Part shown: positions 3,637 to 32,889 of the stretch, piece by piece | Layout: each line of letters begins with the position of its first letter | How positions within the stretch are numbered: position 1 is the stretch's first letter | NCBI GenBank assembly: GCA_016793885.1 | Contig: JAEUHE010000011.1 | Location: 1 to 34,506, forward strand | DNA from: Verrucomicrobiales bacterium | GTDB taxonomy: Bacteria; Verrucomicrobiota; Verrucomicrobiia; Limisphaerales; UBA11320 | DNA: 34,506 nucleotides | Direction: 5' to 3' | Position numbers and translations under genes: made by a program | Notes under the pieces: model-generated | The model's database searches: none | What the model was told of the DNA's origin: nothing | The model's input: only the letters and a program-made list of their open reading frames with translations

Positions 3637-5427
3637 ATGAGCGAACTACAAACATTGGCGCCCCATTTGGTGGGTGGAAATTTTCTTCTTCAGGACACCG
3701 ATCCGTCGAAGGTCTTCACACCCGAGGATCTCACCTCTGACCAGCGCCAGATGGCGGAGACGGCGCAGAAGTTTATGGACAAGGATGTGCTGTCGCAGCT
3801 GGACGCACTGGAGCACCAGTCGCCTGGTCTGGCGGTCAAACTCTTCAAGAAGGCCGGGGAGATCGGACTTCTGGGAATCGAAGTCCCTGAGGAGCACGGC
3901 GGCCTGGGGCTGGGCAAAACCACCAGCATCGGTGTGTCTGAACAGTTGACCCGCCTGGGTGGCTTCGGAGTGACCTGCGGCGCCCACAGTGGGATCGGCA
4001 CGCAGCCCCTGGTTTATTTTGGAACCGCGCACCAGAAGGAGAAGTATCTCTCCAAGCTCGCCACGGGCGAATGGATGGCCGCGTATTGCCTGAGCGAGCC
4101 CTCCTCCGGATCCGACGCCCTCGCAATGCGCACCAAGGCTGTGCTGTCCGCCGACGGCAAACACTACGTTCTCAACGGCACCAAGATGTGGATCAGCAAC
4201 GGGGGATGGGCCGACCTCTTTACTGTGTTCGCCAAGGTAGACGGACAGCATGTTACGGCTTTCTTGGTTGAACGTTCGTTCGCCGGAGTGTCGACCGGCA
4301 AAGAGGAGCACAAACTTGGACTCAAGACATCCTCGACCTGCCGGATTATCCTGGAGGATGTCCAGGTGCCGGTCGAGAACGTGTTGGGGGAGGTGGGGAA
4401 GGCGGCCTACATCGCCTTCAACATTCTCAACTTTGGTCGCTTTGGCCTGGGTGCTGGTGCGGTGGGCGCTGCGAAGGATCTGCTCCGATTGGGAGCCAAG
4501 TATGCCTCGGAGCGTTCCCAGTTCGGACGCCCCATCGCCTCCTTCGGCTTGATCCAGCACAAGATCGGGGAAGGGGCGGCCCAGGTCTTCGCGGCTGAGA
4601 GTGCGGTTTATCGCACGGCCGGGATGATTGACGAAGTGATGAACGGGGGCGAGCTGATCAGCTCCATGTCGCCGGGTTATCCGCGCGGCTTGGATGAGTT
4701 CGCGCTGGAGTGTTCCATTCTGAAGGTGGCCTGCAGCGAGACCCTGGACTTCGTGGCGGATGAGATGCTGCAGGTGCACGGGGGCTATGGTTATACCGAA
4801 GAGTTTCCGGCCGCGCGGGGTTACCGCGATTCACGCATCAATCGAATCTTTGAGGGCACCAACGAGATCAATCGCTTGTTCATCCCGGGATCCCTCCTGA
4901 GGCGGGCGCAGAAGGGGCGTTTTCCCCTGATGCAGGCCATCACCAAAGTGGCGAAAGAGATGTTGGATTACAGCCCGTGGGAAGAAAGTTCGGACGAGCT
5001 GGCCAACGCCCGGGCCTTCCTAGGCAATGCCAAACGGTTGGTGCTCTTTCTCTCAGGAGTTGCGCATCAGCGCTTCGGAGACAAGTTGCTGGAGCAGCAG
5101 GAGGTGTTGGGGGCTCTCAGCGACCTGATCATCGATCTCTTCCTAGGCGAGAGCGCGGTGTTGAGGGTGTTGAAAACGCGCTCGCGCGGCGCGGCGACCG
5201 GGTCGATGGCGAGCCTGGCGATGGTTTTTGTCAACGAGAGCGCGATGCGGATGGAGCAGAATGCCAAGACGGCCTTGGCCGCGATTTCCGAGGGCGACGA
5301 GCTTCGCACGCATCTCGGGATGGTGCGACGGCTCTTGCGCTGGACTCCGATCAATAGCGTCGCCCTCCGGCGCCACCTGGCGCAGCGGATCTCCGATCGC
5401 GGAAGTTACGGAGCCCTGCTCCAGTGA
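3637..5427 (+). CDS. Acyl-CoA dehydrogenase, long form (VLCAD/FadE-like with C-terminal extension)
   Basis: This 596-residue flavoenzyme oxidises acyl-CoA to trans-2-enoyl-CoA and passes electrons to ETF. The N-terminal helical domain (to about residue 145) contains GLLGIEVPEEHGGLGLG. The middle beta domain has the FAD/substrate signature AAYCLSEPSSGSDA and later LNGTKMWISNGGWAD. The C-terminal helical domain carries RSQFGRPIASFGLIQHKIGE, QVHGGYGYTEEFPAARGYRD and IFEGTNEINR. Glu406 in the last motif aligns with the catalytic base of VLCAD/MCAD. A further ~170 residues follow, as in the long ~590-residue family members. The gene starts 83 nt after the CCG gene and is probably in the same operon. 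Chain-length preference cannot be read from the sequence. Confidence 0.95.
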   Translation: MSELQTLAPHLVGGNFLLQDTDPSKVFTPEDLTSDQRQMAETAQKFMDKDVLSQLDALEHQSPGLAVKLFKKAGEIGLLGIEVPEEHGGLGLGKTTSIGVSEQLTRLGGFGVTCGAHSGIGTQPLVYFGTAHQKEKYLSKLATGEWMAAYCLSEPSSGSDALAMRTKAVLSADGKHYVLNGTKMWISNGGWADLFTVFAKVDGQHVTAFLVERSFAGVSTGKEEHKLGLKTSSTCRIILEDVQVPVENVLGEVGKAAYIAFNILNFGRFGLGAGAVGAAKDLLRLGAKYASERSQFGRPIASFGLIQHKIGEGAAQVFAAESAVYRTAGMIDEVMNGGELISSMSPGYPRGLDEFALECSILKVACSETLDFVADEMLQVHGGYGYTEEFPAARGYRDSRINRIFEGTNEINRLFIPGSLLRRAQKGRFPLMQAITKVAKEMLDYSPWEESSDELANARAFLGNAKRLVLFLSGVAHQRFGDKLLEQQEVLGALSDLIIDLFLGESAVLRVLKTRSRGAATGSMASLAMVFVNESAMRMEQNAKTALAAISEGDELRTHLGMVRRLLRWTPINSVALRRHLAQRISDRGSYGALLQ

Positions 5428-6895: not shown

Positions 6896-7531
6896 CTAGG
6901 CGTTAGGCTGCGGGGTATAGCGCAGGTACGGCTTCACGTGACGCGCACCTTTCGGGAAGAGAGCGGCGATCTCGGCATCCTTTACCGCGGGGGTGATGAT
7001 GCAGTCCTGGCCGTGTTCCCAGTTCGCCGGGGTCGCGACCTTGTACTTCGAGGTTAGCTGCAGAGAGTCGATCACGCGCAGGAGTTCCAGGAAGTTGCGT
7101 CCGGTGGAGGCAGGGTAGGTGAGAGTCAGCTTCACCTTCTTGTCCGGTCCGATGATGAACACCGAGCGGACGGTGAAGGTGGCATCGGCGTTGGGGTGGA
7201 TCATGTCGTACATCAAGGAGACCTGGCGGTCCGGATCCGCGATAATGGGGAAGTTCATGCTGCAACGCTGCGTCTCGTTGATGTCCGGGATCCAACCTTG
7301 GTGAGCGGACAGCGGATCAACGCTGATGGCGATGCATTTCACGCCGCGCTTGTCGAACTCCGGCTTCAGCTTGGCCGCTGCGCCCAGTTCGGTGGTGCAC
7401 ACCGGGGTGAAGTCGGCCGGGTGGGAGAACAAGATGCCCCAGCTGCCGCCGAGCCATTGGTGGAAATCAATCTTTCCCTCGGTTGTATCCGCAGTGAAAT
7501 TCGGAGCTTCGTCGCCTAAACGGAGTGCCAT
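6896..7531 (-). CDS. 1-Cys peroxiredoxin (Prx6-type, AhpC/TSA family)
   Basis: This 211-residue cytoplasmic peroxidase reduces H2O2 and organic hydroperoxides. The peroxidatic Cys45 lies in HPADFTPVCTTELG, with the family Pro and Thr in place. The C-terminal 1-Cys Prx domain is visible (PANWEHGQDCIITPAV, ending HVKPYLRYTPQP). No classical resolving Cys is evident, so an external thiol is expected to recycle it. The ATG at 7531 (MALRLGDEAPNF) is chosen because it matches the family N-terminus. The frame stays open upstream for another ~158 codons, but that part has no peroxiredoxin similarity and overlaps a divergent small gene. A perfect hairpin lies 31 nt before the start. Confidence 0.95.
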   Translation of the reverse strand: MALRLGDEAPNFTADTTEGKIDFHQWLGGSWGILFSHPADFTPVCTTELGAAAKLKPEFDKRGVKCIAISVDPLSAHQGWIPDINETQRCSMNFPIIADPDRQVSLMYDMIHPNADATFTVRSVFIIGPDKKVKLTLTYPASTGRNFLELLRVIDSLQLTSKYKVATPANWEHGQDCIITPAVKDAEIAALFPKGARHVKPYLRYTPQPNA

Positions 7532-7562
7532 AGTCTTTGTATCGTTACGGTTAAGAGTCGTT

Positions 7563-7582
7563 CCCGCCAGTTGGCTGGCGGG
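7563..7582 (-). promoter_or_regulatory. Perfect inverted repeat in the peroxiredoxin leader
   Basis: CCCGCCAG-TTGG-CTGGCGGG forms a perfect 8-bp stem with a 4-nt loop, 31-50 nt upstream of the peroxiredoxin ATG. There is no T-run, so it does not look like an intrinsic terminator. It could be an operator or an mRNA leader hairpin. Its function is not established. Confidence 0.45.
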
Positions 7583-7684
7583 TAAGAATCGGAATCTACC
7601 TGAGGTCCGCCCACCTGTGAAGCGGCAAGTTTTATGGTGAAAATTGCCTGTTGCTTTGTCCCTGGTAACCGTTGAGTCTGGACC

Positions 7685-7873
7685 ATGAACAATAGTTTGC
7701 AGCAGCATGGGATCCGCGAAGTTCAGAAGCAACTTCGCCTGCGTATGAAAAACAGCGGGCTCGACTCCATCCGAGTCGAAGTCACCCGCAAATCCGGGAA
7801 GCTCAAGTTTGATTTCCTCGGCAGCCCCGACCAGGTGACCAAAGCCTACGAGCTCGTGGCCAACTGGGACTGA
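7685..7873 (+). CDS. Small conserved-looking hypothetical protein (62 aa)
   Basis: This short ORF reads MNNSLQQHGIREVQKQLRLR, then a basic stretch, KLKFDFLGSPDQVTKAYELV and a final WD. The pattern (amphipathic helix, beta strand SIRVEVTRK, strand KLKFDF, helix) looks like a compact alpha/beta fold rather than random translation. It starts 153 nt upstream of, and divergent to, the peroxiredoxin start, so the two may share a control region. There is no recognisable domain, signal peptide or ribosome binding site. I do not recognise the family. It could be a spurious ORF, but the residue distribution supports a real gene. Confidence 0.5.
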   Translation: MNNSLQQHGIREVQKQLRLRMKNSGLDSIRVEVTRKSGKLKFDFLGSPDQVTKAYELVANWD

Positions 7874-8006
7874 GAATCGGCTAGCCGTCGGCTCTGTCGA
7901 CCCGCGATAGAGTTGATGGTTCCACAAGTGGGTCCCGCACAAGGGCTCTGGGCTCAGTTGCCCAAGGAGGTTTGAGCCCGATGAGGGGCTGTCAACGTTG
8001 AACATC

Positions 8007-9635
8007 CTACTGCGCTGCAGTTCTATTCAGTAGTGCCGCAATTTCTGAGTGTCCCCGGCGTCTGGCCCAAGACAGCGGCGTAGCCCAGGGAGGATCGTCG
8101 AGAAGCTCCGGTTTGGCGCCTCGGCTCAGAAGTAATTCCACCATCGCCTTCTGTCCGAATTTTGCGGCCCAGCCCAAAGGGGTGGAGCAGATGTCCTCGT
8201 CGCGTGCTTCGAGGTTTGCTCCATGGTCAAGGAAGAGGGTGGCTTTTTCCAGGTCCCCGGTTCTCGCGAACTGATGCAGCGGGGTGATCCCCAGCCAGTC
8301 TGTGGCATTGGGGTTCATGCCGTGCTCGAAGAGCAGCTCATTCAGTTCGCGCGTCTTGGCACCGACCGCCCAGCCGGGAAAGGAAACCTGCCGTGGCAGG
8401 TCGGGTTGGTAGCGCAGCATCAGTCGCACGAATGGCTCGTGGCCCTCCGAAGCGGCATTGGCCAGCGCCTCCGGATCGTTGGCCAAGGCAGGGTTCGCGG
8501 CGAAGACTGCCGCGGCGGTGGGAACGTCATTGTCATAGGCGAGGAGATGGACCTTCCGAGCCGCACCCCAGGAGCAGAGGAGTTGCTGAAGCTTGAGGTC
8601 TCGGTTGGAAATGACTCGGCTGAGGGTGTCGGCGGAGCTTTCCACTTCAACGTTGGGATGGGCACCATGCTCCAGGAGGAGCTGAACGATTTGGTGGTGA
8701 CCTTTCGCGGCTGCGGAGTAGAGGGCGTGTCCGTCGGGGGCGATGCCTTCTTCGGGGAGGTTCGGATCCGCCCCGCGCTCAAGCAGCAGTTTCACCACTT
8801 CGAGATGGCCATTCGCCGCGGCGTTCTTGATGGGGGCACCACAGCCGATGTAGTACGAGCCATACTCGGACACTCGATTCACCGCGCTGGGATCGCGGTT
8901 CAAAAGCTCCTCCACACGATGCCAATTTCCGGTCGCACAGGCCATGCCGAGATCCATTTCTGCTCCTCGACTCACCAAGTGTTGCAAGACTTCCAGCGGG
9001 GTGGTGGTAACTTCTTTGGGAACATCGCGCCAACCTCGGTAGTGATAGTCGCCGTTTGTGAGATGGATGGGACGAGCGCCATCGGCCCGCTTAGCGTGGA
9101 TGTCCGCCCCGCGCTGCAGGAGGTCATCGATCAGGTTGAGTTGGCGGGTCATGACCGCCCAGTGAATCGGCTGATTGGAGCGCGCGTCGCCCGCGTGGAG
9201 AAGCTCCGGTTCCGCGTCCAGGAGAGCGGAGACCTTCGCTGGATCCCGGGTGCGGATGCACGCGGCTACCTTCTCCCCCCGATCTGATGCTCCCTGACGC
9301 TGCGCGAAGCTTTGTTCCAGCACCGCCTGCATCGCTGCATAGCCGCGGTCCTGACAGATCTGGATCAGGCTGTCATTGTAAGCGAGACCGGTTGGATCTG
9401 GATCGCGTTCCAGGAGAAACGTTGCGACCTCGATGCGGTTCTCCCGGACGGCGAAGTAGAGGGGTTTGCGGTAGGCAAAGTGGCACCGCACCAGGGTGGG
9501 ATCCTTCTGGAGCAGCCTTTGGACGGCATCGAGATCGCCATCCCTGCAGGCGCAAAATAGAGCCCAGACGTCGGCCCCCGTTCCGGTTGACCATTTGAGA
9601 GGAGAGTCACTTTTGAGTTGGTCAGGCTGTGTCAT
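8007..9635 (-). CDS. Ankyrin-repeat protein
   Basis: This 542-residue protein is built almost entirely of ankyrin repeats. Examples are NQPIHWAVMTRQLNLIDDLL, KNAAANGHLEVVKLLLERGA, YSAAAKGHHQIVQLLLEHGA, TPLHQFARTGDLEKATLFLD and TPLGWAAKFGQKAMVELLLS. I count about ten repeats, several of them diverged. Ankyrin arrays are protein-binding scaffolds; no catalytic domain, signal peptide or membrane anchor is visible, so it is probably cytoplasmic. The ATG at 9635 (MTQPDQLKSD) is preferred over an in-frame TTG five codons upstream. The binding partner is unknown and the neighbours give no clue. Confidence 0.9.
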   Translation of the reverse strand: MTQPDQLKSDSPLKWSTGTGADVWALFCACRDGDLDAVQRLLQKDPTLVRCHFAYRKPLYFAVRENRIEVATFLLERDPDPTGLAYNDSLIQICQDRGYAAMQAVLEQSFAQRQGASDRGEKVAACIRTRDPAKVSALLDAEPELLHAGDARSNQPIHWAVMTRQLNLIDDLLQRGADIHAKRADGARPIHLTNGDYHYRGWRDVPKEVTTTPLEVLQHLVSRGAEMDLGMACATGNWHRVEELLNRDPSAVNRVSEYGSYYIGCGAPIKNAAANGHLEVVKLLLERGADPNLPEEGIAPDGHALYSAAAKGHHQIVQLLLEHGAHPNVEVESSADTLSRVISNRDLKLQQLLCSWGAARKVHLLAYDNDVPTAAAVFAANPALANDPEALANAASEGHEPFVRLMLRYQPDLPRQVSFPGWAVGAKTRELNELLFEHGMNPNATDWLGITPLHQFARTGDLEKATLFLDHGANLEARDEDICSTPLGWAAKFGQKAMVELLLSRGAKPELLDDPPWATPLSWARRRGHSEIAALLNRTAAQ

Positions 9636-9753
9636 AACGAGGGACTTCAATCTCTGGATAGGTCATCTCGATGACGGTGACCAGAGAAATATGTCGAGGG
9701 GGATTGCTGGGGTTGCCCCTTTGTTATCCTGACCCTGGGGCAGGAGTGGGCCC

Positions 9754-9881: not shown

Positions 9882-11267
9882 ATGACTTCCCTAAACCGTC
9901 GGTTGTTCTTGCGATCCGGTGCTTGTGGGGTGGCTGGGCTCGCTGCTCTCTCTCAGCTTCCGCGGGTCGTTGGGCAATCGAACGGAGATCGTCCGTCGTC
10001 GGCACGGGGGGACGTGACTGTTCTGAATCCTCAGGGTCGGGTCCCGGTTGGTTTGATCATTGATGACTCCACCTGCCTGGTGAACCTCAATCGGTTTGCG
10101 ATGCCTCAGTTTGATCAAGCCTGGGAACATGGGGCGGCGGTGTATCATCGCAAGTGGCGTGATTGGCCGGTCGAGATTCCCGATCGCTTTGTTCGCAAGT
10201 TTGCCGAGTGGTGCAGCGACCAGGGGGTGAAGGGGAAGTACAGCATCGTTCCGTTCCCTGCGTGTGTCGGTCGGTTGGATCGCATGTTGCCGGGATGGAC
10301 TCAGCGAGAACTGCAGGAAAGTCTCCAGGTGGTGCGGGAATGGATGCTTCCGAACTGGGATATCCACCCGGAAATGGTCACCCACACTCGGGTGATCGAT
10401 ACCAAAACCGGACATCCTCACACCGACCATTCGCTCAAGTTCATGGAGAATTGGGAATGGACCACGGGGCGCAGTGTCGATGAGATTGCGGACTATCTGG
10501 CCTATGCGCTGCGTATCTTGAAGAACGTGGGACTTCCCTGTGAAGGGGTGACCACGCCTGGAGGGTTCGGAGGCAAAGCCCTGGTTCAGCTTTCGCAGGC
10601 CTCTCTCCAATCGGTTCGTGATGTCTATCAGGCGGAAGTTCCGCACTACTTTCGGCACCTGTACAGCGAAGGCAAGGAGAGTGTGGCTCCACGGGTTGAG
10701 AATGCGTCTGGTCTGGATGGATCGGATCCCAGATGCGTGGTGAGCATTGTCGGGTGTGCGGGGGATTGGACCGGCGGGTGGGACAACACGCCCCCCGGCG
10801 GCGCCGACAAATTTATCACCGCCGACCTTCAAAGCGGCCGTATGGTCGACATCATTCGCCGGGGCGAACCTGCGCTGATGTTGGCCCATTGGACAGGCAT
10901 TTACTGGAACGGAGAGGAGCAGGGGTTCAAAGTCTTTCAAGAGGTGGTTCGTCGGCTGAAAGCACGCTATGACCATCTGATCTGGATGAAGCTCAGCGAA
11001 ATCTCGCGGTATTGGGCGGCCAAGGAGTTGACGCAGATCGCTCGAACCGCGCGGGACATTCGCTTCCAGGCTCCCTTCGCTTGCTCACAATTTACGGTGC
11101 GATTCCTGGCGGGCGCGAACTCAGTCCCGACATTGGGCGGGATGCCCTTGGTGGAAGTGAGTGGGCCGTTCAAACTGAAACCTGGATCCTGGTGTCGGGA
11201 CCATCAGTCTATCATCGTGTGCTTCGCCCTGCCTCGGGGCAGCTCGCAGATCGAACTCGTAGGCTAA
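9882..11267 (+). CDS. Tat-exported protein of unknown function (possible deacetylase-like barrel)
   Basis: This 461-residue protein has an N-terminal twin-arginine signal (SLNRRLFLRSGACGVAGLAA), with likely cleavage before about residue 35. The mature part begins VPVGLIIDDSTCLVNLNRFA and continues with KYSIVPFPACVGRLDRMLPG and CEGVTTPGGFGGKALVQLSQ. The IIDDST segment and the spacing of His/Asp-containing strands are reminiscent of polysaccharide-deacetylase-type barrels, but the canonical TFDDG and HxxxH motifs are not clear. The substrate is therefore left open. Its stop overlaps the stop of the convergent NRPS gene by a few bases (11264-11267), with no terminator between them. Confidence 0.8.
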   Translation: MTSLNRRLFLRSGACGVAGLAALSQLPRVVGQSNGDRPSSARGDVTVLNPQGRVPVGLIIDDSTCLVNLNRFAMPQFDQAWEHGAAVYHRKWRDWPVEIPDRFVRKFAEWCSDQGVKGKYSIVPFPACVGRLDRMLPGWTQRELQESLQVVREWMLPNWDIHPEMVTHTRVIDTKTGHPHTDHSLKFMENWEWTTGRSVDEIADYLAYALRILKNVGLPCEGVTTPGGFGGKALVQLSQASLQSVRDVYQAEVPHYFRHLYSEGKESVAPRVENASGLDGSDPRCVVSIVGCAGDWTGGWDNTPPGGADKFITADLQSGRMVDIIRRGEPALMLAHWTGIYWNGEEQGFKVFQEVVRRLKARYDHLIWMKLSEISRYWAAKELTQIARTARDIRFQAPFACSQFTVRFLAGANSVPTLGGMPLVEVSGPFKLKPGSWCRDHQSIIVCFALPRGSSQIELVG

Positions 11268-14200
11268 CCCTCGGAGTCCGCCGCTTGGCTCTTCGTGACG
11301 GCGGCTGCGTCTAAGCACGAACGCAGCTGTTGGGCGAGGATTCTGGCGTTAGGGGCCTCGATCAGCGTGACATGATCGCCTGGCACTTCGCACACTTCCA
11401 ATCCTCCTAACGCGATTCGGCTCCAGATCCGGCGCAGCGCCGCCTTGGTGGACATCGGGTGCTCGGCGGCTAGCAACAGCGTTACTTTGCCGGGATAGGG
11501 CAGGGTGATGTAACGGCGGGCGGCCAGGGTGTTGGCCTCGCGGACATCCCGGAGGTCGGTCGGTAAGTCCGGATTTCGGTCGGACTGACGCTGATATCGC
11601 CACCGCCAGATCCAGCTTTTCAACCGGCGCTGGGCCGTTTTGGATTTTTTTCTCAGATAGGCGCGCCAATCGTCCTGCTTCGAGATCTCACCTAAATGAC
11701 CTTGAACTCGGATCTGCCAAGATCTCATCCGTTCCCTGGTCCGCTCGCGCAGTGGGAGCAACTCGGCATGGCCCGGCGGGTGGGTATCGAGCAACGCCAG
11801 GAGGCCCACCGGATGTCCATTCCTCTTCAGCTGTTGCGCGAGCTCAAACGCAACGACCCCGCCGAAGGAGAGACCGCAGAGGTGATAGGGCCCGTTCGGC
11901 TGGAGTGCGAGGATCTCCCTCAGATAAGCTTCCGCCATCTGCTCCACGCGGTCGAGCGGAGGGGACTTGCCATCCAACCCCACCGACTGCACACCGAACA
12001 CCGGTTGATCTTCGCCGAGGTGCACGGCGAGATCTCGAAATCCGAGGATGTTTCCTCCGACCCCGTGGATCAGAAACAGCGGTTCTCGCGTTCCCTTGGT
12101 TTGGATGGGCACCAATGTCTGCCAGGGCGGTGTCCAGCCCTGATCTCGCAGCACCCGGGCCAGCCCCCGGATTGTTGGCGCTTGAAACAAGGTTGCCAGC
12201 GGTAGCTTGAGATTGAGTGTTTGCTCCAGCTCGGAGAAGAGCCGCATCGCGAGCATGGAGTGTCCGCCCAGCTCGAAAAAGTTGTCGTCGATGCTGAGTC
12301 CCTCACGACGGAGGACGCTTCCCCATAGCTCCAGTAAACGGAGTTCCAGCGGGTCTGTCGGAGGACTGCCCTGGGGGGCGGCCTGAGTGGTTCTGGGCGC
12401 AGTAGCCAAGGATCTACGGTCCACCTTTCCATTCGGAGTCAGCGGTAGGGTGGATCGCAACTCGATTCGTGACGGCAGCATGTAGTCGGGGAGTCTTTCC
12501 CCCAGCCACGCACGCAGTGAATGCTCCGAGATCGTGGCTTCCGCCTTCCCGACAATGAAGGCTGCCAGACAATGTCCTCCGGTTGTGTCGAGCTGCGAGA
12601 TGACCGCGCAGAGGGTGACGTCTGGATGGTTCGCGAGCACTGACTCAATCTCTCCGAGCTCTACTCTGAACCCGCGGATTTTGACCTGATTATCTAAACG
12701 GCCACGGAACTCGATAGTCGCGTCGGGTTTCCAGCGAGCCCGGTCTCCGGTTCGATACATTCGGGCGCCTGGTATGGGACTAAAGGGATCTGGGACGAAG
12801 CGCTCCGCGGTTAAGTCGGGCTCGTTTAGATAGCCCAGCGCCACACCCTCCCCCCCGGTGTACAGCTCTCCTTCGACTCCCACCGGAACCGGCTCGCGGT
12901 TCTCATCCAGAATGTAGACCTGCGTGTGGGGTATGGGACGGCCGATGGGTACGCTGTGAGCCAACTCTTGCTCGTTGGCAATGGTATGACAGCATGTGAA
13001 CGTGGTGTTCTCCGTGGGGCCATAGCCATTGATGAGTCGGCAATGGGGGAGCGCGCGTCGGGCTTTCAGGACCAGTTCGGGCGCGAGAACATCTCCGCCA
13101 GCGATCAGCTGTCGAACCGACTTCAACGCCTCGAGTTGATGCTCAACCATCAGGTGGAAGAGCCCCGCCGTCAGCCAGAGGGTGTTGATTTGATGTTTTT
13201 GGATGGCATCGCCCAGGTGGCTCAGCGAGGCCGGTCCAGGCGCCATGAGCGCGAGGCAGCCACCATTGAGCAGGGTGCCCCACAGTTCGAAAGTCGAGGC
13301 GTCGAACGAGAGAGGGGAGGCGTGGAGCAACCTTGTCTCGGGACCCAGCGACACATAGTCCGTGCCCTGGACCAGGCGGACGATCCCGCGATGGGGGATC
13401 AGCACGCCCTTGGGACGGCCGGTTGAACCCGAGGTGTAGTTGACGTAGGCCGCGTCCGCGGGTGTTCCTTCGGATGCCAAATTCATTTCGCTCTGGCTCG
13501 GCAGGCTGTCGGCGGCGGAATCCAGGCAGATCAGGCGGGTCGGAAGCGAGCCCAGCTTGCCTTTCCATTTTTCCTGTGTCACCAGGATCGGGATCCGCGT
13601 GTCCTCGATGACGAACTGCAACCGCGCATTCGGATAATCAGGATCGATCGGAACATAGGTTCCTCCGGCCTTCAGGATTGCTAAAACGCTGATCACCATC
13701 TCCAGTGAGCGCGCTGTTGAGATGCCGACGAGGGTGCCTCGGTTGACGCCCTGCTCCCTCAGGTAGCAGGCGAGCTGATTGGCCCTGACGTTGAGGTTTC
13801 GATAGCTCAGCGATTCATCATCCGATTGCACGGCCACCGCCTCCGGTGACCGCATCGCCTGCGCCTCGAACAGTTCGTGAACGCGACGGTTGTCAAGCGG
13901 CACGGTGGAAGGGGCGTTCCACTCTGAGAGCAGCTGGTGGCGCTCTGCCGGGGTGAGGAGCGCGAGTTTGGCCACCTTTTGTTCGGGGTCGGCCACGATG
14001 GAATGCAGCAGCGTTTGGAAGTGATGCGCCAGGCGGCCGATCGTCGTGGAATCGAACAGGTCGGTGCTGTAATCCCAGTAGGTCGTTAGCCGTTTCCCTG
14101 TGTCCGCCACGGAAAGCATCAGATCGAACTTGCTTCCAGGAACCGGCAGCACGATCGACTTCGCTCGTGTGCCTGCGAACGAGGTCCGGGCGTTGGCATT

Positions 14201-15418
14201 TGCTTCGAAAACAAACATCACTTGGAAGAGCGGATTGGCGCTGGCACTGCGCGCCGGAGCGAGGTCCTCCACCAATTTCTCGAACGGGAGGTCCTGATGT
14301 GTCATTGCATCCAGGACACATTCCCTGATCCGCGCCAAGGTCTCCCGAAAGCCTAGGCTTCCCGACAGATGGCAGCGCATGACCAAGGTGTTCACAAAGA
14401 AGCCGATGATCGAGTCCAGGTGCTGACGGCTGCGGCCTGCAATGGGAGTCCCGACCGCGATATCCGGCTGACCACTGTACCGGTGAAGCAACACCTGGAA
14501 CCCCGCCAGCAGAGTCATAAACAGGGTGGCTCCTTCCCGTTGGCCGAGGTCTCTCAGGCTTTGAGCCAGCGTCTGGGGGAGCTCGAGCACGAATTGCGCC
14601 CCGTTGGCGCTAGCACCGGCGCGACGCGGTCGATCGGTCGGGAGTTCCAGATTCGAGAGGCCTTCGAGATTCCGTTTCCAGTAGTGCAGTTGGTCCTCCA
14701 GCGACTGGTTACGCATTCGCTCCCGCTGCCACACCGCATAGTCAACATAGCGAAGGGGCAGTTCGGGCCAGAGCAGGGATCGCCCTTGTGCTAAGCTTGA
14801 ATAAGCGAGTTCAAGGTCACGCCAGAACAAGCCCATAGACCATCCGTCCGTGGCGATGTGATGCATGGTCACCATCAATACGTGACGCTCCGAACTCAGT
14901 TGGAGGAGCAGCCCGCGCAGCGGCGAGCCCGAGCCGAGGTCAAACGGTCGGCGGATTTCCGCAGCCAAAAGGCGTTCCGTCGTTGCCTCGAGCGGCTCCG
15001 CCGGGGTTGCCTCGAGAACACACTCTTGCAATCGGAAATTGGAATCCGGCGCCACGCGCTGCACCAGATCTCCGTTTTCCAAAGCGAATGTCGTACGGAG
15101 GACGTCGTGTCGCTGGATGACTGCACGGAAGGCTTCTTCAAGCCGGTCCACCTGGATGGTGCCGTCCAACTCCAGGGCCGATGGGACGCAGTAGACCGCT
15201 GTCTGGGGAGCGCACTGGTAAAGAAACCACATGCGCTGTTGGCCGGGCGACGCCGGGTAAACGGAGACCTGCGATGGTTGTTCGATGCGGGATGGTGCGA
15301 TTCGTGGTATGCTTTGCGGCGGGGTTCCGGAGGCCGATAGTGGAGGCTGGTGTAGGCCCCGCGTCGGAGCCAGCACCGCCTTCAACTTGGCACTGAGCTG
15401 GAGGATGGATGGCTTCAA
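11264..15418 (-). CDS. Nonribosomal peptide synthetase, one complete module with release domain (C-A-T-TE)
   Basis: This 1384-residue enzyme has four domains. Condensation (about 50-490): QQRMWFL, active-site MHHIATDG (His187, Asp191) and HQDLPFEKLVE; LCL-like by eye. Adenylation (about 510-1005): YTSGSTGRPKG, NGYGPTE, YRTGDRARW, and Lys998 in NGKVDRRSL. Carrier (about 1025-1090): FFELGGHSMLAM, phosphopantetheine Ser1054. Thioesterase (about 1105-1365): GLSFGG Ser1184, Asp1211, GDH His1349, so the triad is intact. The hand-extracted specificity code is D706 A707 F710 W748 I772 G774 G798 T806 F807 K998, the classical valine code. As a C-first protein it needs a donor, most simply the A-T-TE enzyme encoded at 17398-20073. 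The predicted start is TTG, overlapping the stop of a 64-codon ORF (TTGA); no ATG occurs before the C1 motif. Confidence 0.95.
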   Translation of the reverse strand: MKPSILQLSAKLKAVLAPTRGLHQPPLSASGTPPQSIPRIAPSRIEQPSQVSVYPASPGQQRMWFLYQCAPQTAVYCVPSALELDGTIQVDRLEEAFRAVIQRHDVLRTTFALENGDLVQRVAPDSNFRLQECVLEATPAEPLEATTERLLAAEIRRPFDLGSGSPLRGLLLQLSSERHVLMVTMHHIATDGWSMGLFWRDLELAYSSLAQGRSLLWPELPLRYVDYAVWQRERMRNQSLEDQLHYWKRNLEGLSNLELPTDRPRRAGASANGAQFVLELPQTLAQSLRDLGQREGATLFMTLLAGFQVLLHRYSGQPDIAVGTPIAGRSRQHLDSIIGFFVNTLVMRCHLSGSLGFRETLARIRECVLDAMTHQDLPFEKLVEDLAPARSASANPLFQVMFVFEANANARTSFAGTRAKSIVLPVPGSKFDLMLSVADTGKRLTTYWDYSTDLFDSTTIGRLAHHFQTLLHSIVADPEQKVAKLALLTPAERHQLLSEWNAPSTVPLDNRRVHELFEAQAMRSPEAVAVQSDDESLSYRNLNVRANQLACYLREQGVNRGTLVGISTARSLEMVISVLAILKAGGTYVPIDPDYPNARLQFVIEDTRIPILVTQEKWKGKLGSLPTRLICLDSAADSLPSQSEMNLASEGTPADAAYVNYTSGSTGRPKGVLIPHRGIVRLVQGTDYVSLGPETRLLHASPLSFDASTFELWGTLLNGGCLALMAPGPASLSHLGDAIQKHQINTLWLTAGLFHLMVEHQLEALKSVRQLIAGGDVLAPELVLKARRALPHCRLINGYGPTENTTFTCCHTIANEQELAHSVPIGRPIPHTQVYILDENREPVPVGVEGELYTGGEGVALGYLNEPDLTAERFVPDPFSPIPGARMYRTGDRARWKPDATIEFRGRLDNQVKIRGFRVELGEIESVLANHPDVTLCAVISQLDTTGGHCLAAFIVGKAEATISEHSLRAWLGERLPDYMLPSRIELRSTLPLTPNGKVDRRSLATAPRTTQAAPQGSPPTDPLELRLLELWGSVLRREGLSIDDNFFELGGHSMLAMRLFSELEQTLNLKLPLATLFQAPTIRGLARVLRDQGWTPPWQTLVPIQTKGTREPLFLIHGVGGNILGFRDLAVHLGEDQPVFGVQSVGLDGKSPPLDRVEQMAEAYLREILALQPNGPYHLCGLSFGGVVAFELAQQLKRNGHPVGLLALLDTHPPGHAELLPLRERTRERMRSWQIRVQGHLGEISKQDDWRAYLRKKSKTAQRRLKSWIWRWRYQRQSDRNPDLPTDLRDVREANTLAARRYITLPYPGKVTLLLAAEHPMSTKAALRRIWSRIALGGLEVCEVPGDHVTLIEAPNARILAQQLRSCLDAAAVTKSQAADSEG

Positions 15419-15609
15419 GGCCGAAGGTAGGCGTTGAGCGGGACGACCATGGACTGGCTATGATCCGCTAGGATCCGGACGGCGAGTTTTGCTTTACCTA
15501 TACCGTGCAAGTACAACCACATGATCGGATCTATTGAAAAGTAGCGCTGGAGTCTCGACACCCCATTGATGACATCCTGCACTCCAGCTTTATTCGTTAA
15601 AGTATTCAT
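15415..15609 (-). CDS. Small ORF coupled to the NRPS start (64 aa, unknown)
   Basis: This 64-codon ORF begins MNTLTNKAGVQDVINGVSRL and ends ILADHSQSMVVPLNAYLRP. Its TGA overlaps the proposed TTG start of the C-A-T-TE synthetase, the arrangement expected for translational coupling. It is more AT-rich at its 5' end than the genes around it. It is not an MbtH protein: the conserved Trp residues and NxExQxSLWP-type motif are absent. No family is recognised. It may be a small partner, a leader or docking peptide, or a remnant. An alternative is that it is non-coding and the NRPS start differs from my choice. Confidence 0.4.
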   Translation of the reverse strand: MNTLTNKAGVQDVINGVSRLQRYFSIDPIMWLYLHGIGKAKLAVRILADHSQSMVVPLNAYLRP

Positions 15610-15702
15610 GCACGCTCGTCAACTCAACCCAAACCTCATCTCGCAAAGCTTCGCAGCTTGATTCGGTAGCTGCTTCCATGCGACTTGAGTTGCTGTCTTT
15701 TG

Positions 15703-16338
15703 ATGACTACCCGGCCACCAAGCAAGATTGAGCAGCAATTTATGGACCGAGCGATCGTGCTGGCCCGGCAGGCAATGGATTCGGGGGATGGGCCTGTGGG
15801 CTGCGTGATTGTTAAGGACGGGTTGGTCCTCGGCGAGGGGCGGAACACGGTCTGCACCACCCGTGATCCTACCGCTCACGGCGAGATGAATGCGATTAAG
15901 GATGTGGCCCAACGACGGGGCGACGCCGCATTGGCTGGTGCCACGCTCTACACCTCCATGGAACCTTGCCCGATGTGTGGCTGGGCCATTTTGAATTGCC
16001 GGATCGGCACCGTGGTGCTGGGTGCGCGGCACGTTGATTTCCATACTCGCGAACTCGGGACCTATTCGCTCGAGGCGCTCGCTGGGATGACCGGCCGCCC
16101 TCTCGAACTCATCACCGGCGTTCGGGAAGCGGAGTGCCGGGATCTGCGCTATACCGCCCTGGAGCAGGCGGTCCGAGCTCAATCCGCGGTTCAGTTGTCG
16201 TCGCATGGTATTGCACCCGGAACAAGCGCCTCCGCTGGATGCGCTGTGACTCGGGATTCGGCCACAGGAGTCCGTCGGCTGTTTCGCGGCTGGTGGAGCG
16301 ATCTCCTGGGAGTTTTTCGCCGTCGACCGCGTGACTGA
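15703..16338 (+). CDS. CMP/dCMP-type zinc deaminase (nucleoside/guanine deaminase-like)
   Basis: This 211-residue protein has a clear cytidine-deaminase-like fold. Zinc ligands and the catalytic Glu are visible in DPTAHGEMNAI (His59, Glu61) and MEPCPMCGWAI (Cys89, Cys92). GPVGCVIVKDG near residue 30 is the first strand. Family members deaminate cytosine, guanine, nucleosides or tRNA adenosine; the exact substrate cannot be assigned. The first ~155 residues match usual family length. The last ~55 (after about residue 155, ending in a basic RRRPRD tail) are an unusual extension of low complexity. The ATG at 15703 is chosen over an in-frame TTG at 15685. It is the only plus-strand gene inside the NRPS locus and separates the two halves. 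Confidence 0.9.
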   Translation: MTTRPPSKIEQQFMDRAIVLARQAMDSGDGPVGCVIVKDGLVLGEGRNTVCTTRDPTAHGEMNAIKDVAQRRGDAALAGATLYTSMEPCPMCGWAILNCRIGTVVLGARHVDFHTRELGTYSLEALAGMTGRPLELITGVREAECRDLRYTALEQAVRAQSAVQLSSHGIAPGTSASAGCAVTRDSATGVRRLFRGWWSDLLGVFRRRPRD

Positions 16339-16392
16339 CCGGGGAGCCCGCCCCTCACCCTCATCATCCATGAACCGAAAGGTTGCAATGGA

Positions 16393-16533
16393 TTAACCAC
16401 GGATTTCGCGGATGACACGGATTCAAGAATTTTCCTCACACTCTCCAATAGGAGATCGGCGTTCGCTTCAGAGTGCTGAGGTGGTCACTTCAAATCTTTA
16501 CCCATCCGTGCGATCCGTGCGATCCGTGGTTTA
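16393..16533. repeat. Inverted-repeat element with three 9-bp units at each end
   Basis: The left arm (16393-16424) is TTAAC followed by three 9-mers: CACGGATTT, CGCGGATGA, CACGGATTC. The right arm (16502-16533) is the inverted equivalent: CCATCCGTG, CGATCCGTG, CGATCCGTG, then GTTTA. The arms flank ~77 bp of non-coding sequence. The whole could fold into a large hairpin. It lies between the convergent deaminase and dioxygenase genes. It resembles a REP- or MITE-like dispersed element; only one copy is in the window. Confidence 0.65.
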
Positions 16534-16558
16534 CATCCACCTCTCTCGGTTAACGGCA

Positions 16559-17401
16559 TTATCCTTCGCATCTGAGGCGAGCTTGGCAACGGTAGAGCAG
16601 ACGAGGGGAGTCTCCATATCCGCCCATGCCGCGATGCATGACCTGCAGATTGTCCATCAGCACCAGATCGCCGGCCTTCCAGGCGTGTTCGTGAAGCCCT
16701 ACTCGTTGAACACAGCGTTCGACCAGAGGTTCCACGTTGCCCAGGCGCTCTCCGCTGGGACCCTCGATTCCGGTCAGCGAATCGGGGAGATAGAGCGCGA
16801 TCTCCTGGGTCCAAGGATGCGGAAGTGACACCGGGTGCCGCGCGTCCGGCGGCAATTCGTGCGGGGCAGCTTTCTTGAAGTCGCTGATTTCAGAGGCTCT
16901 CACCCAGATGTGGGCATCAGCGAGGCTGGCCTTCTCAGAATCGGAAAGCAATTGATAGGCGAGTCGCATGTCCAGGAAGCCGGTGTTTCCCCCCGTGGCC
17001 GGGACTCGAACACAATTCAAAAAGTTCACGATGAAGTTCTGGCCTGGCCTCCAGAAGTCACCGTCGTGATGCCAGTATTCAGCGAAGCGAACCGACGGGA
17101 TGATGCTGCCGTCTGGACGCACGTTCCCGACCCGCGTGATGCTGGGGAAGCCTGGCTCCTGATTCGAGAGTGCCAATCCGGGTGGGAGCAAGATCACCTC
17201 ACCCCAACGTCCCGCGAATCCCTGAAGCTGCGGCGGGCTTAGCGGTTGTTTGACGAGGCATACGACACCGTGTTTGGCCAGAACCTGGCGGAGCAGTTGA
17301 AGGCTCTGGTCGGAGGCTTCTGCCACGCTGCCGTCGAGTTGAAGCCGGAGGCCTATCTGGCGTGGGAGTGCTAGCGCCGCTGGCAGTGATAGAGCGTTCA
17401 T
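16559..17401 (-). CDS. TauD/TfdA-family Fe(II)/2-oxoglutarate dioxygenase
   Basis: This 280-residue non-haem iron oxygenase carries the iron-binding triad. HxD is in AEYWHHDGDFW (His111, Asp113), and the distal His256 is in LMDNLQVMHRG. Arg267 in SPRLLYR is the likely 2-oxoglutarate carboxylate ligand. Enzymes of this family hydroxylate or desaturate small molecules and, in NRPS loci, often free or carrier-bound amino acids. The ATG at 17401 (MNALSLPAAL) overlaps the stop of the A-T-TE gene by 4 nt (ATGA), fixing the start and implying translational coupling. The frame stays open ~47 codons upstream, but that overlaps the previous gene. Its substrate is probably the amino acid or peptide made by this cluster; that is inference. 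Confidence 0.92.
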   Translation of the reverse strand: MNALSLPAALALPRQIGLRLQLDGSVAEASDQSLQLLRQVLAKHGVVCLVKQPLSPPQLQGFAGRWGEVILLPPGLALSNQEPGFPSITRVGNVRPDGSIIPSVRFAEYWHHDGDFWRPGQNFIVNFLNCVRVPATGGNTGFLDMRLAYQLLSDSEKASLADAHIWVRASEISDFKKAAPHELPPDARHPVSLPHPWTQEIALYLPDSLTGIEGPSGERLGNVEPLVERCVQRVGLHEHAWKAGDLVLMDNLQVMHRGMGGYGDSPRLLYRCQARLRCEG

Positions 17402-20073
17402 GGGGTGGGGTGCGGATGCTGGGTGTCGATTCGGGACCGGAAGGCGGCCATCCATCGAGCGCTGACCGGTTGCGTGAACCAGCCATCCTCGTCCGTGCCA
17501 ATGGTCTGAACGCATCCCGAGGACGGGAGTAGCTCGGTCCACAGGCTGCGATCCTTTTGGCTGGCCTCCAGGATCGCCAGGACCTCGCCCTGGTAGGGTT
17601 GCGGGGCGTAGTGCTTCGCCAGCCGCTTAGCGGCATACCAGACGGCCGGCCAGCGGTTCTTGGGGAGCAACAGGATCGAGATGGAGTTGCTCTTTTTTCC
17701 GTAGAGATGGACGCGGTAATAGCTCAGCCATTGCCAGACCCCTCTCGTCTGGGACTGGATGGCCTGCAGCGCCCCGGTAAGGAATCCGGTTGAGCGGGCG
17801 GCTTGGCGTTCGGTGCCGGGCCGTTGGGTGGCCCGGGAATCCGGCGAGGGCTGGCGACGCTGGGAAGCGATGGCGTTCGGCTCGGAAGGATTGAGCAGGA
17901 AGAGCAGCTCTACTGTCTCTCCGGCGCGCCGCAACTGGTGCGCCATCTCCAGGGCGAGCAGCGCTCCAAAGGAGAACCCGGCCAGCCGGTAAGGGCCCGC
18001 GGGCTGAATCGTTCGGAGAATTCCGATCTCGATCTGTGCCAGTTCCTCCATGGAACTCGCCTCCACGAACCCCTTTCCTTGCGCCCATAGCGAAACAGAA
18101 TAAAGTGGGCAATCCGCCGTCCACATGCCCTGGCGCGCCATTCTCAAATCCACGCCGCAAAAGAACACGGGGGTTCCTCGGCCTTGAGGCGAAAGGGGAA
18201 ACACGAAGGCCTCGTTGCCATGGTCGCGGAGCTGGGCGCGTGCGCGGTCGATGTGTGCCGCCAGCTTTCGTACTGTAGGCGATTCGAAAACGGTGCGAAC
18301 CGAGAGATGTAGATCGAACCTGGACTCGGCCTCCAGCAGCATGGTGACCGCCGATAGCGAGTCGCCTCCGATGGTGAAGAAGTGATGATCCCGGCTGATA
18401 GGTCTTACATTCAGCGTCTTTTCCCAGATGCGGATCAATTCCTTCTCGGTTGGAGTTGTCTGCTCTTGAGGGGCGGTGGTCAGCTCCTCTCCGGGCGCTT
18501 CGGCGACCCGGGCGCGGATGGCTTTGCGGTCGATCTTGCCATTGGGCGAAATGGGCAGGATATCGCAAAACACGAACCGAGAGGGGATCACAGCGGGTGT
18601 GAGTAGATCCTGTAGATGGCGATGCAGGGATTCCGGATCGAGTTGGTGATTCGGGCGTCCGACGATCGCTGCCACGATCGATCTTGAGCCCGAGGCGGTG
18701 GTGAACCAGGTTGCTGCTGCGCTGGCTACCTGCGGGTGCTTGAGGATCGCGGACTCGACTTCCATTGGTTCGATGCGGACACCCCGCACCTTGATCTGGT
18801 CGTCGTTGCGGCCAAAGTAGTGCAGTGTGCCCTCGGCATCCTGAGCGACTATGTCCCCCGTGCGATAGAACCGTTCAGCAGTGTCGCCGATGCTGATAAA
18901 CCGTTCCCGCGTGAGCGATTCGCTTTTGCAATACCCGCGGGCCAGCGCCTCCCCACCGATCCACAATTCACCTTCGGCTCCGGGTGGCACGACTGCCAGC
19001 TGGTCGTCGAGGATGCGTATCGTCACATTTGGCAGGGGGCGGCCGATGGGGGCGGAAACCTTGGATCGTGAGGGAGCCTCATTCGGGCCTGTCTGGAGTT
19101 TGTGTCCGGTGGCCCAAACCGTCGTTTCCGTTGGGCCGTACAGATTCCAGACCGAGTCTCCGACCTCGGCGAGGCGTCGGGCCAGATCCGGCGAGATGGC
19201 TTCACCGGTGGATATTGCGACCCGGAGACGGGGAAAGTTGGGTACCTCCGCCAGAAGGATTGACCAGACGGAAGGTCCGGTTTGGAAGACCGTGATCTGG
19301 TTGTCCACCAGGGCGGCCGCAAGCTGCCGGGGTTGCATGACCAGCTCCGTCTCACCGAGCACGACCGTTCCGCCGCTTAGCAGCGGGAGGAACAACTCTG
19401 CCACCGAGATGTCGAATCCGATTTTCGACAGGGCGAAGTAGCGATCTGATTCCGTAAAGGCGATCAGATCGCGTGCCGCCATCAGCAGGTTGATCACGCT
19501 TCGATGTTCCACTTCGACCCCCTTCGGCAGCCCAGTGCTGCCGGAGGTAAACAGGATGTAGGCCAGGCGGCGTCCTCCGGGTGCCTGGGTGTTTTGCTGG
19601 CCTGATCGCGTATCGTCCGCGGGCTCATGGGCGCCTTGTACTGATGTGGCGCCGCAGTCCTCGATGGCAAGAAACTCAACGTCGGGAGCGGAGAACTTCA
19701 GGTGCTCGCGGAACGTGGCTATGCGTTCTCGGCGTCCGATCACCATCGAGCAGCCGGTGACATTAATGATGTGGCGGATGCGGTCCGGCGGATCGTCCCT
19801 GTCCACCGGGACGTAGCAACCGCCCGCCGCAAGAATGCCGAGGAGTGTGGCGACTAGATCCGTGGTTCGATCGGTGAGCACCGCCACCGGCTGTTCAGCT
19901 CGAAGCTTGCGGCGGATGAGCTGGTTTGAGACGGCTTGGGCCCTGGAGGCGAGCGCCGCATAGGAGATGGAGCCGGAAGCATCCACGGCCGCGATGGCCT
20001 CGGGCCGACGCGCCACCTGGCGAGCGAAGAGATCGTGCACTCCCAGATCCAGGATGTTTTCTACGCCGTTCAT
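17398..20073 (-). CDS. NRPS loading enzyme, A-T with a degenerate thioesterase domain
   Basis: This 891-residue protein has no condensation domain, so it activates and holds one amino acid. Adenylation (about 10-525): LFTSGSTGLPKG, NLYGPTETT, YRTGDIVAQ, Lys513 in NGKIDRK. Carrier (about 540-610): FFTIGGDSLSAV, Ser572. A TE-like alpha/beta-hydrolase (about 630-890) has GFSFGA with Ser701. However, the usual Asp is Asn728 (LLFLLNPSEP), and the usual GDH is replaced by TDEDGWFTQ with no His nearby. The TE is therefore probably inactive. The hand-extracted code is D221 I222 A225 Q264 I287 T289 L311 V319 W320 K513. It matches none I remember exactly; the closest is the glycine-type DILQLGLIWK (6 of 10). 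The gene starts 6 nt after the P450 stop and overlaps the dioxygenase start. Confidence 0.94.
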   Translation of the reverse strand: MNGVENILDLGVHDLFARQVARRPEAIAAVDASGSISYAALASRAQAVSNQLIRRKLRAEQPVAVLTDRTTDLVATLLGILAAGGCYVPVDRDDPPDRIRHIINVTGCSMVIGRRERIATFREHLKFSAPDVEFLAIEDCGATSVQGAHEPADDTRSGQQNTQAPGGRRLAYILFTSGSTGLPKGVEVEHRSVINLLMAARDLIAFTESDRYFALSKIGFDISVAELFLPLLSGGTVVLGETELVMQPRQLAAALVDNQITVFQTGPSVWSILLAEVPNFPRLRVAISTGEAISPDLARRLAEVGDSVWNLYGPTETTVWATGHKLQTGPNEAPSRSKVSAPIGRPLPNVTIRILDDQLAVVPPGAEGELWIGGEALARGYCKSESLTRERFISIGDTAERFYRTGDIVAQDAEGTLHYFGRNDDQIKVRGVRIEPMEVESAILKHPQVASAAATWFTTASGSRSIVAAIVGRPNHQLDPESLHRHLQDLLTPAVIPSRFVFCDILPISPNGKIDRKAIRARVAEAPGEELTTAPQEQTTPTEKELIRIWEKTLNVRPISRDHHFFTIGGDSLSAVTMLLEAESRFDLHLSVRTVFESPTVRKLAAHIDRARAQLRDHGNEAFVFPLSPQGRGTPVFFCGVDLRMARQGMWTADCPLYSVSLWAQGKGFVEASSMEELAQIEIGILRTIQPAGPYRLAGFSFGALLALEMAHQLRRAGETVELLFLLNPSEPNAIASQRRQPSPDSRATQRPGTERQAARSTGFLTGALQAIQSQTRGVWQWLSYYRVHLYGKKSNSISILLLPKNRWPAVWYAAKRLAKHYAPQPYQGEVLAILEASQKDRSLWTELLPSSGCVQTIGTDEDGWFTQPVSARWMAAFRSRIDTQHPHPTP

Positions 20074-20079
20074 GATTGC

Positions 20080-21432
20080 CTAACGCTTCGTCAACTGCAC
20101 TGCGAACCGGGGAGCAGGTTCCCAATGATAGGCCCCGCGGACCGGAGGTCCGGGGGTAATGACACGGATACCATAATTCTGCGCCAGCTGGCGCAGAAAG
20201 ATGAGACCGAGCTTCAATACCAGTCCTCCCATTGGACACTGATGATGATCCACTCCGAACGGCGCGAATACATCGTTGCCGGGGGTTCCTTCCACAAAAC
20301 GATCCGGCTTGAATTGGTGCGGTTCTTCAAACGCGTCTGTCCCATGATGGGACTCCCAGAGACACAGCCGCACCGTCGCTCCCCGTGGAATCAGGAAACC
20401 GTCGAAGACTATATCACGCAGGGCGCGTCGCATCAAACGCTCACTTTGGTCCGTTCGAAGGGTTTCCATCACAAAAGACTCCGACAGCGTCAACTGTCCC
20501 TCAGGCGCGGCCGGTTCGGAAGCGATGCGATCGAGTAGCGTCGGCTGATCGCTCGCGTGGCGAGTGAGCCAGCGAAAGAAGTTCTTCATGTCGGAACGGC
20601 CCATCTCCACTTGATAGATCAGGTTCCCCAGCATCGAGTCATCGACCGAGCCATCCTCAGCCATTTTCGCGAGTAGCCCGCTTTTCGACAGTCCTCCCGA
20701 TCCGGCGCGAAGCTTGGCAGCTTCGCCCTGAAGATCTGCCAAGAAGGCTTGGAACGCCTTTTCCTGGCGGACTTGCGGATTCCAGACCAGTCCGTACGGA
20801 CCAAGGTTGTGCAAGTGCTCCTGAATTCGTCGATGTTCAACGGTGCCGGGCTTGGCTCCGAAGTAGACCCAGATCAGCATCGCTGTCGCGATGCCCGACA
20901 GGGAAGTGCTGAAGGCGTCCGGCGAGTTGCCGTGCTCTTCAGCACGGTCTAGATAGTCCTTCAACCCAGCCGCCGTGATCGACTCCAGCACCGCTGTAGT
21001 TTGCTCGGCTTCGTGGGGGCAGGAGGCCGAGGTGCGCTGAGCCCGGTAGGTCGCTTTCCGAATCTCGCGATGATCCTCTCCCTCCATTGCGCAGATAAAG
21101 CCTTTGGGGATGAGGTGCTCGAGTTCCATGGTTTGAACCCGCAGGTCCGCGCGATTGGCCTGGGTGAATCGTCGACACCGCTCCAGGCCCACGATGCAGA
21201 CGTTGAGTTCGCCCCAGGCGATGCCTTTGAAAATGGGCCCCAGCCGTTCCGCTCGCAACCGCAGCGCATCGCGGTTGGTCCGTTCCAGGACGTCGAGGAT
21301 AGCGTAGTCACCGGGGGGCAGCGGATGACGGGACAGAGTCTCACGCACGCGGGCGTACGCCTTAGGATACCTCCGAAGAAGGTCCTGCATCGTGTTCGTG
21401 GTCGAGGTGACCCAATTGGCAAGCCAAGGCAT
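20080..21432 (-). CDS. Cytochrome P450
   Basis: This 450-residue soluble P450 has the haem loop FAPFGVDHHQCPMGG with thiolate ligand Cys399 and the K-helix ExxR as ETLR (Glu323-Arg326). A PERF-like FKPDRF is at about residues 374-379. The I-helix stretch is YQVEMGRSDMKNF (about 273-285). The canonical [A/G]GxxT acid-alcohol pair is missing its Thr: Asp281 is followed by Met282. It is the first gene of the P450 / A-T-TE / dioxygenase operon. The parallel with P450s that beta-hydroxylate an amino acid bound to a stand-alone A-T protein suggests it acts on the aminoacyl carrier protein. That role and the redox partner are inferred; no ferredoxin gene is present. Confidence 0.92.
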   Translation of the reverse strand: MPWLANWVTSTTNTMQDLLRRYPKAYARVRETLSRHPLPPGDYAILDVLERTNRDALRLRAERLGPIFKGIAWGELNVCIVGLERCRRFTQANRADLRVQTMELEHLIPKGFICAMEGEDHREIRKATYRAQRTSASCPHEAEQTTAVLESITAAGLKDYLDRAEEHGNSPDAFSTSLSGIATAMLIWVYFGAKPGTVEHRRIQEHLHNLGPYGLVWNPQVRQEKAFQAFLADLQGEAAKLRAGSGGLSKSGLLAKMAEDGSVDDSMLGNLIYQVEMGRSDMKNFFRWLTRHASDQPTLLDRIASEPAAPEGQLTLSESFVMETLRTDQSERLMRRALRDIVFDGFLIPRGATVRLCLWESHHGTDAFEEPHQFKPDRFVEGTPGNDVFAPFGVDHHQCPMGGLVLKLGLIFLRQLAQNYGIRVITPGPPVRGAYHWEPAPRFAVQLTKR

Positions 21433-31911: not shown

Positions 31912-31944
31912 AGCTCAAACCCCCCGGCCCGTTCCGCATCGGCT

Positions 31945-32880: not shown

Positions 32881-32889
32881 TCGACTTCT

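Follow-up and report, generated by a model that had tools for sequence, protein, structure and literature searches.

The window, by which is meant the whole stretch of 34,506 nucleotides that was analysed, contains four enzyme genes on its minus strand and, set among them, a fifth gene of opposite orientation. Pfam and NCBIfam scans, on which the family assignments are based, identify a cytochrome P450 of 450 amino acids (20080 to 21432; PF00067, 7.2e-16; orthologues at 43–62% identity in eight genomes), then a stand-alone nonribosomal peptide synthetase (NRPS) protein of 891 amino acids in which Pfam gives the domain order adenylation, carrier, thioesterase (A-T-TE) without a condensation (C) domain (17398 to 20073; PF00501, 1e-80, PF13193, PF00550 and PF00975; orthologues 42–57%; carrier motif GGDS), and then a TauD/TfdA-type Fe(II)/2-oxoglutarate dioxygenase of 280 amino acids with its ATG at 17401 (16559 to 17401; PF02668, 2e-32; orthologues 62–68%). 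The P450 stop (20080–20082) and the start of A-T-TE at 20073 are 6 nt apart, and the TauD ATG (17401–17399) lies within the A-T-TE stop TGA (17400–17398), the resulting ATGA being a 4-nt overlap. The fourth minus-strand gene (11264 to 15418; TTG start) encodes a separate C-A-T-TE NRPS of at most 1384 amino acids (PF00668, 1.9e-113, PF00501, PF00550 and PF00975). A preliminary description of this DNA had placed just these four genes on one strand, with that gap and that overlap, and the scans and coordinates confirm it on each count; it did overlook the fifth gene, and also the damage to one thioesterase triad that is dealt with below.

The fifth gene, on the plus strand at about 15703 to 16338 (its reading frame is open from 15685), encodes a CDA-superfamily deaminase of guanine-deaminase/TadA-like type (PF00383, 3.8e-25). 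As it lies between the C-A-T-TE and TauD genes, convergent with the latter and divergent from the former, the C-A-T-TE gene is outside the operon of the P450, A-T-TE and TauD trio, and there are two minus-strand units. The deaminase gene is real, since a homologue in L030 matches it in position and orientation and copies with 57–58% identity are present in the trio genomes G384, G385 and G386; matches in the other searched genomes are weaker, 33–39% over most of the length. A minus-strand reading frame at 15619–16371, which overlies it, was rejected. The protein scores 86.9 bits against the NCBIfam model for TadA, under the 150-bit equivalog cut-off, among solved chains guanine deaminases come nearest to it, by a narrow margin over TadA, and a further family member, 33% identical, is encoded in the window genome at C32.

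The surroundings may be described briefly. Directly upstream of the P450 gene (21579–25552, minus strand) are genes for a PEP-CTERM protein and, preceding it, a 1062-amino-acid protein with CotH and lamin-tail domains. Beyond these, on the plus strand, are a reading frame of 1119 amino acids without a convincing Pfam match (26788–30147) and a row of DHDPS-family, proline-racemase-family and FAD-dependent DAO genes (31000–34149) that resembles a hydroxyproline catabolism cluster. On the other side a plus-strand frame of 461 amino acids, also without a convincing Pfam match (9882–11267), is convergent with the end of the C-A-T-TE gene and overlaps it by 4 nt. At 6896–9650 (minus strand) a peroxiredoxin-domain protein (369 amino acids) adjoins a 547-amino-acid ankyrin-repeat protein, and an ankyrin-repeat protein is also encoded near the P450/A-T pair of G658 (L153:4910-7405). 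Genes for the ETF alpha subunit, an Fe-S oxidoreductase with a nitrate-reductase-gamma-like part and an acyl-CoA dehydrogenase (463–2738 and 3637–5427, plus strand) make up a set for electron transfer and the oxidation of fatty acids.

How widely does the arrangement occur? Relatives of the P450 are rare, being present in 8 of 320 genomes of the order and in 2 of 387 in the phylum sample, where it is to be kept in mind that, when order, class and phylum were searched, scoring was confined to the 2 to 7 top candidates of each genome, so that absences are less certain than in searches that scored all candidates. The trio recurs in other genomes with the same gene order and protein identities of 52–68%, which is far beyond chance. 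Among the five genomes of the window's genus set the cassette is confined to the window genome, and for that reason it was probably either gained sideways or lost by kin. A P450 gene directly followed by A-T(-TE) is found in the window, G630, G385, G621, G623 and, from another class, G658, whose A-T protein (49% identity) has a different TE-like end with Cys for Ser, and which has no TauD or xanthine dehydrogenase gene next to the pair. In G632 the A-T gene is interrupted by the end of the contig, the frame that follows the P450 looks like an A-T start, and this genome probably carries the pair split in this way. The check for conserved synteny that had been proposed is therefore positive for the P450/A-T pair, which recurs in six other genomes, five of them certain and G632 the contig-split one; it is this pair, and not the four-gene set, that is the oldest visible core. 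A contig titled Klebsiella pneumoniae, CAMAXW010000110.1 (L030), carries the trio otherwise seen in Verrucomicrobia, and its title or binning looks wrong.

Which amino acid does the stand-alone protein load? To read the codes, 26 A domains were aligned. That of its A domain (A1) is DIAQITLVWK in the window and G630, DIAQVTLVWK in G385 and G632, and, read by eye, DIVQVTLIWK in G658, giving for these five a conserved signature D-I-[A/V]-Q-[I/V]-T-L-[V/I]-W-K with D235 kept; two relatives in which A-T-TE is fused to a further module are more variable (DVASITLTWK in G621, DQAAITLVWK in G623). No exact match of DIAQITLVWK to a known code was at hand. All these codes are similar to the glycine-type DILQLGLIWK present in the same genomes, yet they differ from it at two positions in every case. 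Resemblance to the glycine type suggests a small amino acid as substrate, and glycine cannot be beta-hydroxylated. The A1 code, unusual and conserved, is thus glycine-like and poorly suited to the beta-hydroxylation of residue 1 that the preliminary description had put forward, and that part of its proposal is weakened.

The thioesterase domain of the same protein (TE1; 17419 to 18201, minus strand) was aligned with those of five orthologues and with the second TE of the locus. Ser701 is kept, and the columns of the triad Asp and His are occupied by N728 and E862, so that two of the three Ser-Asp-His positions required of an active type I thioesterase are lost, whereas the orthologues in G630, G632, G385, G621 and G623 have all three intact. 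With Asp and His gone, TE1 of the window is probably unable to hydrolyse or release a product. A change of His to Glu requires at least two base changes, and a single read error is in consequence not a sufficient explanation for E862. The HGxGG loop is missing from TE1 of the whole A-T-TE orthologue group and present in the second TE. Could the cassette simply be decaying in this genome, TE1 being dead and the rest no longer used? The loss of two triad residues and the lack of the cassette from the four other genus members would suit such decay, but the four NRPS and oxidase frames are full length with catalytic motifs intact outside TE1, the operon spacing is tight, and P450, A-T-TE and TauD have kept 52–68% identity to relatives, so we regard decay as very improbable. 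Loss of the triad in one TE, with relatives intact, does provide a natural test of how A-T-TE hands over its cargo.

For the second NRPS protein the valine code reported earlier is borne out: its A domain reads DAFWIGGTFK, an exact valine code, such codes being common among A domains of these genomes. Its thioesterase (TE2) has the Ser-Asp-His triad, in GLSFG, LLDT and GDH, intact in the alignment, as activity requires. Is it the partner of A-T-TE? In G623 a single protein of 2246 amino acids (L063) has the order A-T-TE-C-A-T-TE, its second module being complete with the valine code DAFWLGGTFK and a P450 gene lying upstream, and G621 has an A-T-TE-C-A fusion in which the contig end falls inside the second A domain. 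Since A-T-TE is in both fused to a condensation module, an arrangement in which residue 1 is handed to a second module does exist. In the condensation domain of G621 (L062) the second His of HHxxxDG is replaced by Pro, and the domain may be inactive. The two-module logic of the preliminary description thereby holds for the fused relatives, one of them valine-coded, while for the window the link to the C-A-T-TE protein is drawn from context. Identity to the fused module is 42% for C and 47% for A, other NRPSs of the order reach 45–47% and 55% respectively, and the TE is closest, at 47.5%, to that of a different NRPS from the window genome. By these similarities, which do not single out the fused module, the window C-A-T-TE is not its specific orthologue, and the idea that C-A-T-TE is a conserved partner of the trio was rejected as an established fact. 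Separate occurrence of the two NRPS genes in related genomes, which the preliminary description had named as refuting its proposal, is in fact seen: G632 has no NRPS in the approximately 3.9 kb before its P450 gene or the 12 kb after TauD, C-A-T-TE was not seen next to the trio in the other trio genomes (within short contigs only for G630 and G385), and the best C-A-T-TE matches in G384 and G386 are members of PKS-aminotransferase-NRPS clusters.

A rival account is that P450, A-T-TE and TauD, joined by the deaminase, suffice by themselves to make one modified amino acid or a derivative, and that C-A-T-TE is an unrelated neighbouring NRPS. The solitary trio of G632, the short contigs of G630 and G385, the missing orthology and the kinship of TE2 to an NRPS of the same genome all suit this account, as does the oppositely oriented deaminase that keeps C-A-T-TE from the trio; it has to contend with the damage to TE1, which leaves it no evident release step, and with the fusion of A-T-TE to a second module in two genomes, one valine-coded. 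We consider it possible, though on the doubtful side. In the light of context and the fused relatives, a partnership of the window A-T-TE and C-A-T-TE is plausible.

The P450 has both ETLR (the ExxR motif) and the heme Cys in FGVDHHQCP, and ETLR and the Cys of FGxDHHxC are kept in an alignment of 12 sequences. Its I-helix is another matter, as it reads EMGRSD, not AGxDT; nearly all of the 12 have EM[GA]R[SY]D in place of the canonical acid-alcohol pair (AG-x-D/E-T), with E276, R279 and D281 invariant. The closest solved relative is CYP120 (64.5 bits), and the best 60 of 121 solved matches include no P450 that acts on an NRPS carrier. Kinship to NikQ or OxyD was entertained and is without support among these best 60 of 121. 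The predicted structure, with a mean pLDDT of 56.5, is too poor for use. Mesorhizobium plasmids of symbionts (L134, L135) encode a distant P450 (34% identity) whose gene overlaps, and is paired with, one for a family A glycosyltransferase, not an NRPS. The earlier proposal that the P450 acts on a carrier-bound residue is supported in one respect, for conservation of a P450 beside a stand-alone A-T protein is what such action would lead one to expect. It loses ground in that the I-helix pair and NRPS-type best relatives are missing and in that G600 and G601 have such P450s without an A-T orthologue, which was looked for throughout both genomes (best 35–36%); the P450 may thus not need a carrier.

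The dioxygenase has intact WHHD (HxD...H) and distal H/R motifs, the latter with the 2-oxoglutarate-binding Arg, and its metal motifs are invariant in six orthologues. It scores under every NCBIfam equivalog cut-off and is a distinct subfamily tied to this P450. In the P450 tree a fully supported clade A (window, G630, G632, G385, G600a and G601a) is linked to TauD, and clade B, everything else in the family (G600b, G601b, G621, G623 and G628), goes together with a xanthine dehydrogenase (XDH) of single-chain type, encoded directly upstream of the P450 in G600, G601, G621, G623 and G628, which passes the TIGR02965 (XdhB) equivalog cut-off in G600 and G623. No such XDH was found at E up to 1e-40 in the window, G384 or G386, G385 having weak 28% molybdoenzymes only, and no TauD was found in G621, G623 or G628. 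One oxidase thus seems to stand in for the other, save in G600 and G601, which have both, with separate P450 copies. It is unusual for one P450 family to have its partner swapped in this way, and the swap offers a direct approach to the substrate.

Might that substrate be a free small molecule, perhaps a purine, on which P450 and second oxidase act before A-T activates or decorates it, the deaminase supplying or processing a nucleobase? The true XDH beside the P450, its exchange for TauD, the company of a nucleobase-deaminase-like gene at 57–58% identity and the P450-TauD and P450-XDH pairs of G600 and G601 that lack A-T point that way. However, A1, with D235 and a glycine-like pocket, selects an amino acid, purine activity of TauD is hypothetical, the P450 and A-T of G658 have neither oxidase adjacent, and the G386 deaminase sits in a housekeeping region. 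We judge a free substrate unlikely.

The explanation that we prefer, tentatively and with less than even confidence, is that P450 and A-T-TE are a carrier-loading and oxidation pair for a small amino acid. The A-T protein would activate one small alpha-amino acid and hold it on its T domain, where the adjacent P450, to go by the conserved adjacency, would oxidise it; TauD would perform a second oxidation, on the tethered or the released group. We infer that order of oxidations. In relatives with an intact TE1 that domain may free the oxidised residue; in the window, as TE1 has lost Asp and His, the residue would most likely be taken over by the C domain of the valine C-A-T-TE nearby, whose intact TE2 would release a dipeptide of oxidised residue and valine, or a derivative. 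The deaminase would be a co-occurring accessory. Against the partnership is that C-A-T-TE has its own transcription unit behind the divergent deaminase and that valine codes are common in these genomes; hand-over can, moreover, do without the loss of TE1, since the fused relatives keep theirs intact. The preliminary description was, then, right on the genes and the valine code, and likely on the kind of logic. If the P450 does act on a carrier-bound glycine-like residue, the chemistry is other than the well-known beta-hydroxylation. More speculatively, and improbably, a P450 family lacking the I-helix acid-alcohol pair might, with a stand-alone A-T protein whose unusual specificity is conserved, be a transferable module for oxidising a carrier-bound residue of glycine-like kind, with a 2-oxoglutarate dioxygenase or XDH interchangeably performing the second oxidation, and possibly join purine-derived and peptide chemistry. 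Whichever applies, this is a rare, movable enzyme set of uncultured Verrucomicrobia, its parts can be tested singly, and the natural variety of partners makes the steps tractable.

Comparison with known systems is instructive. The literature that was searched had nothing relevant on XDH with P450 and an NRPS or adenylation domain, on internal TE domains in NRPSs, on TauD-type xanthine dioxygenases or on NikQ/NikP1. Pairs of a stand-alone A-T protein and a P450 include NikP1/NikQ, NovH/NovI and BpsD/OxyD. For echinomycin, the P450 Qui15 hydroxylates Trp only when it is loaded on Qui18 (PMC3578932). The window shares with these four pairs a stand-alone A-T protein that has no C domain and has a P450 partner. 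It differs from pairs of the Qui18/Qui15 type in that its A1 is glycine-like, theirs being for aromatic residues or His, in the changed I-helix and the lack of NRPS-type P450s among the best solved matches, and in having a (damaged) TE in cis, a TauD or XDH partner and no MbtH in the locus. In polyoxypeptin A (ply) biosynthesis, the proposal is that stand-alone NRPS domains produce oxidised building blocks, which a TE releases for re-use (PMC3943440). That free-standing A/PCP/TE building-block logic is a likeness, though ply has discrete A, PCP and TE proteins and residues that are Ala, Val or Leu, where the window has a single A-T-TE protein with TE1 damaged. With TauD/TfdA dioxygenases the window enzyme shares WHxD...H and the distal Arg, while standing apart from all the NCBIfam equivalogs. 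Finally, measured against bimodular NRPSs that end in a TE, the window has the domain order of the G623 A-T-TE-C-A-T-TE protein in two genes, and its first T is followed by a TE-like domain that such NRPSs lack; unlike in that fusion, a deaminase gene lies between the two, and the second has no orthology to the fused module.
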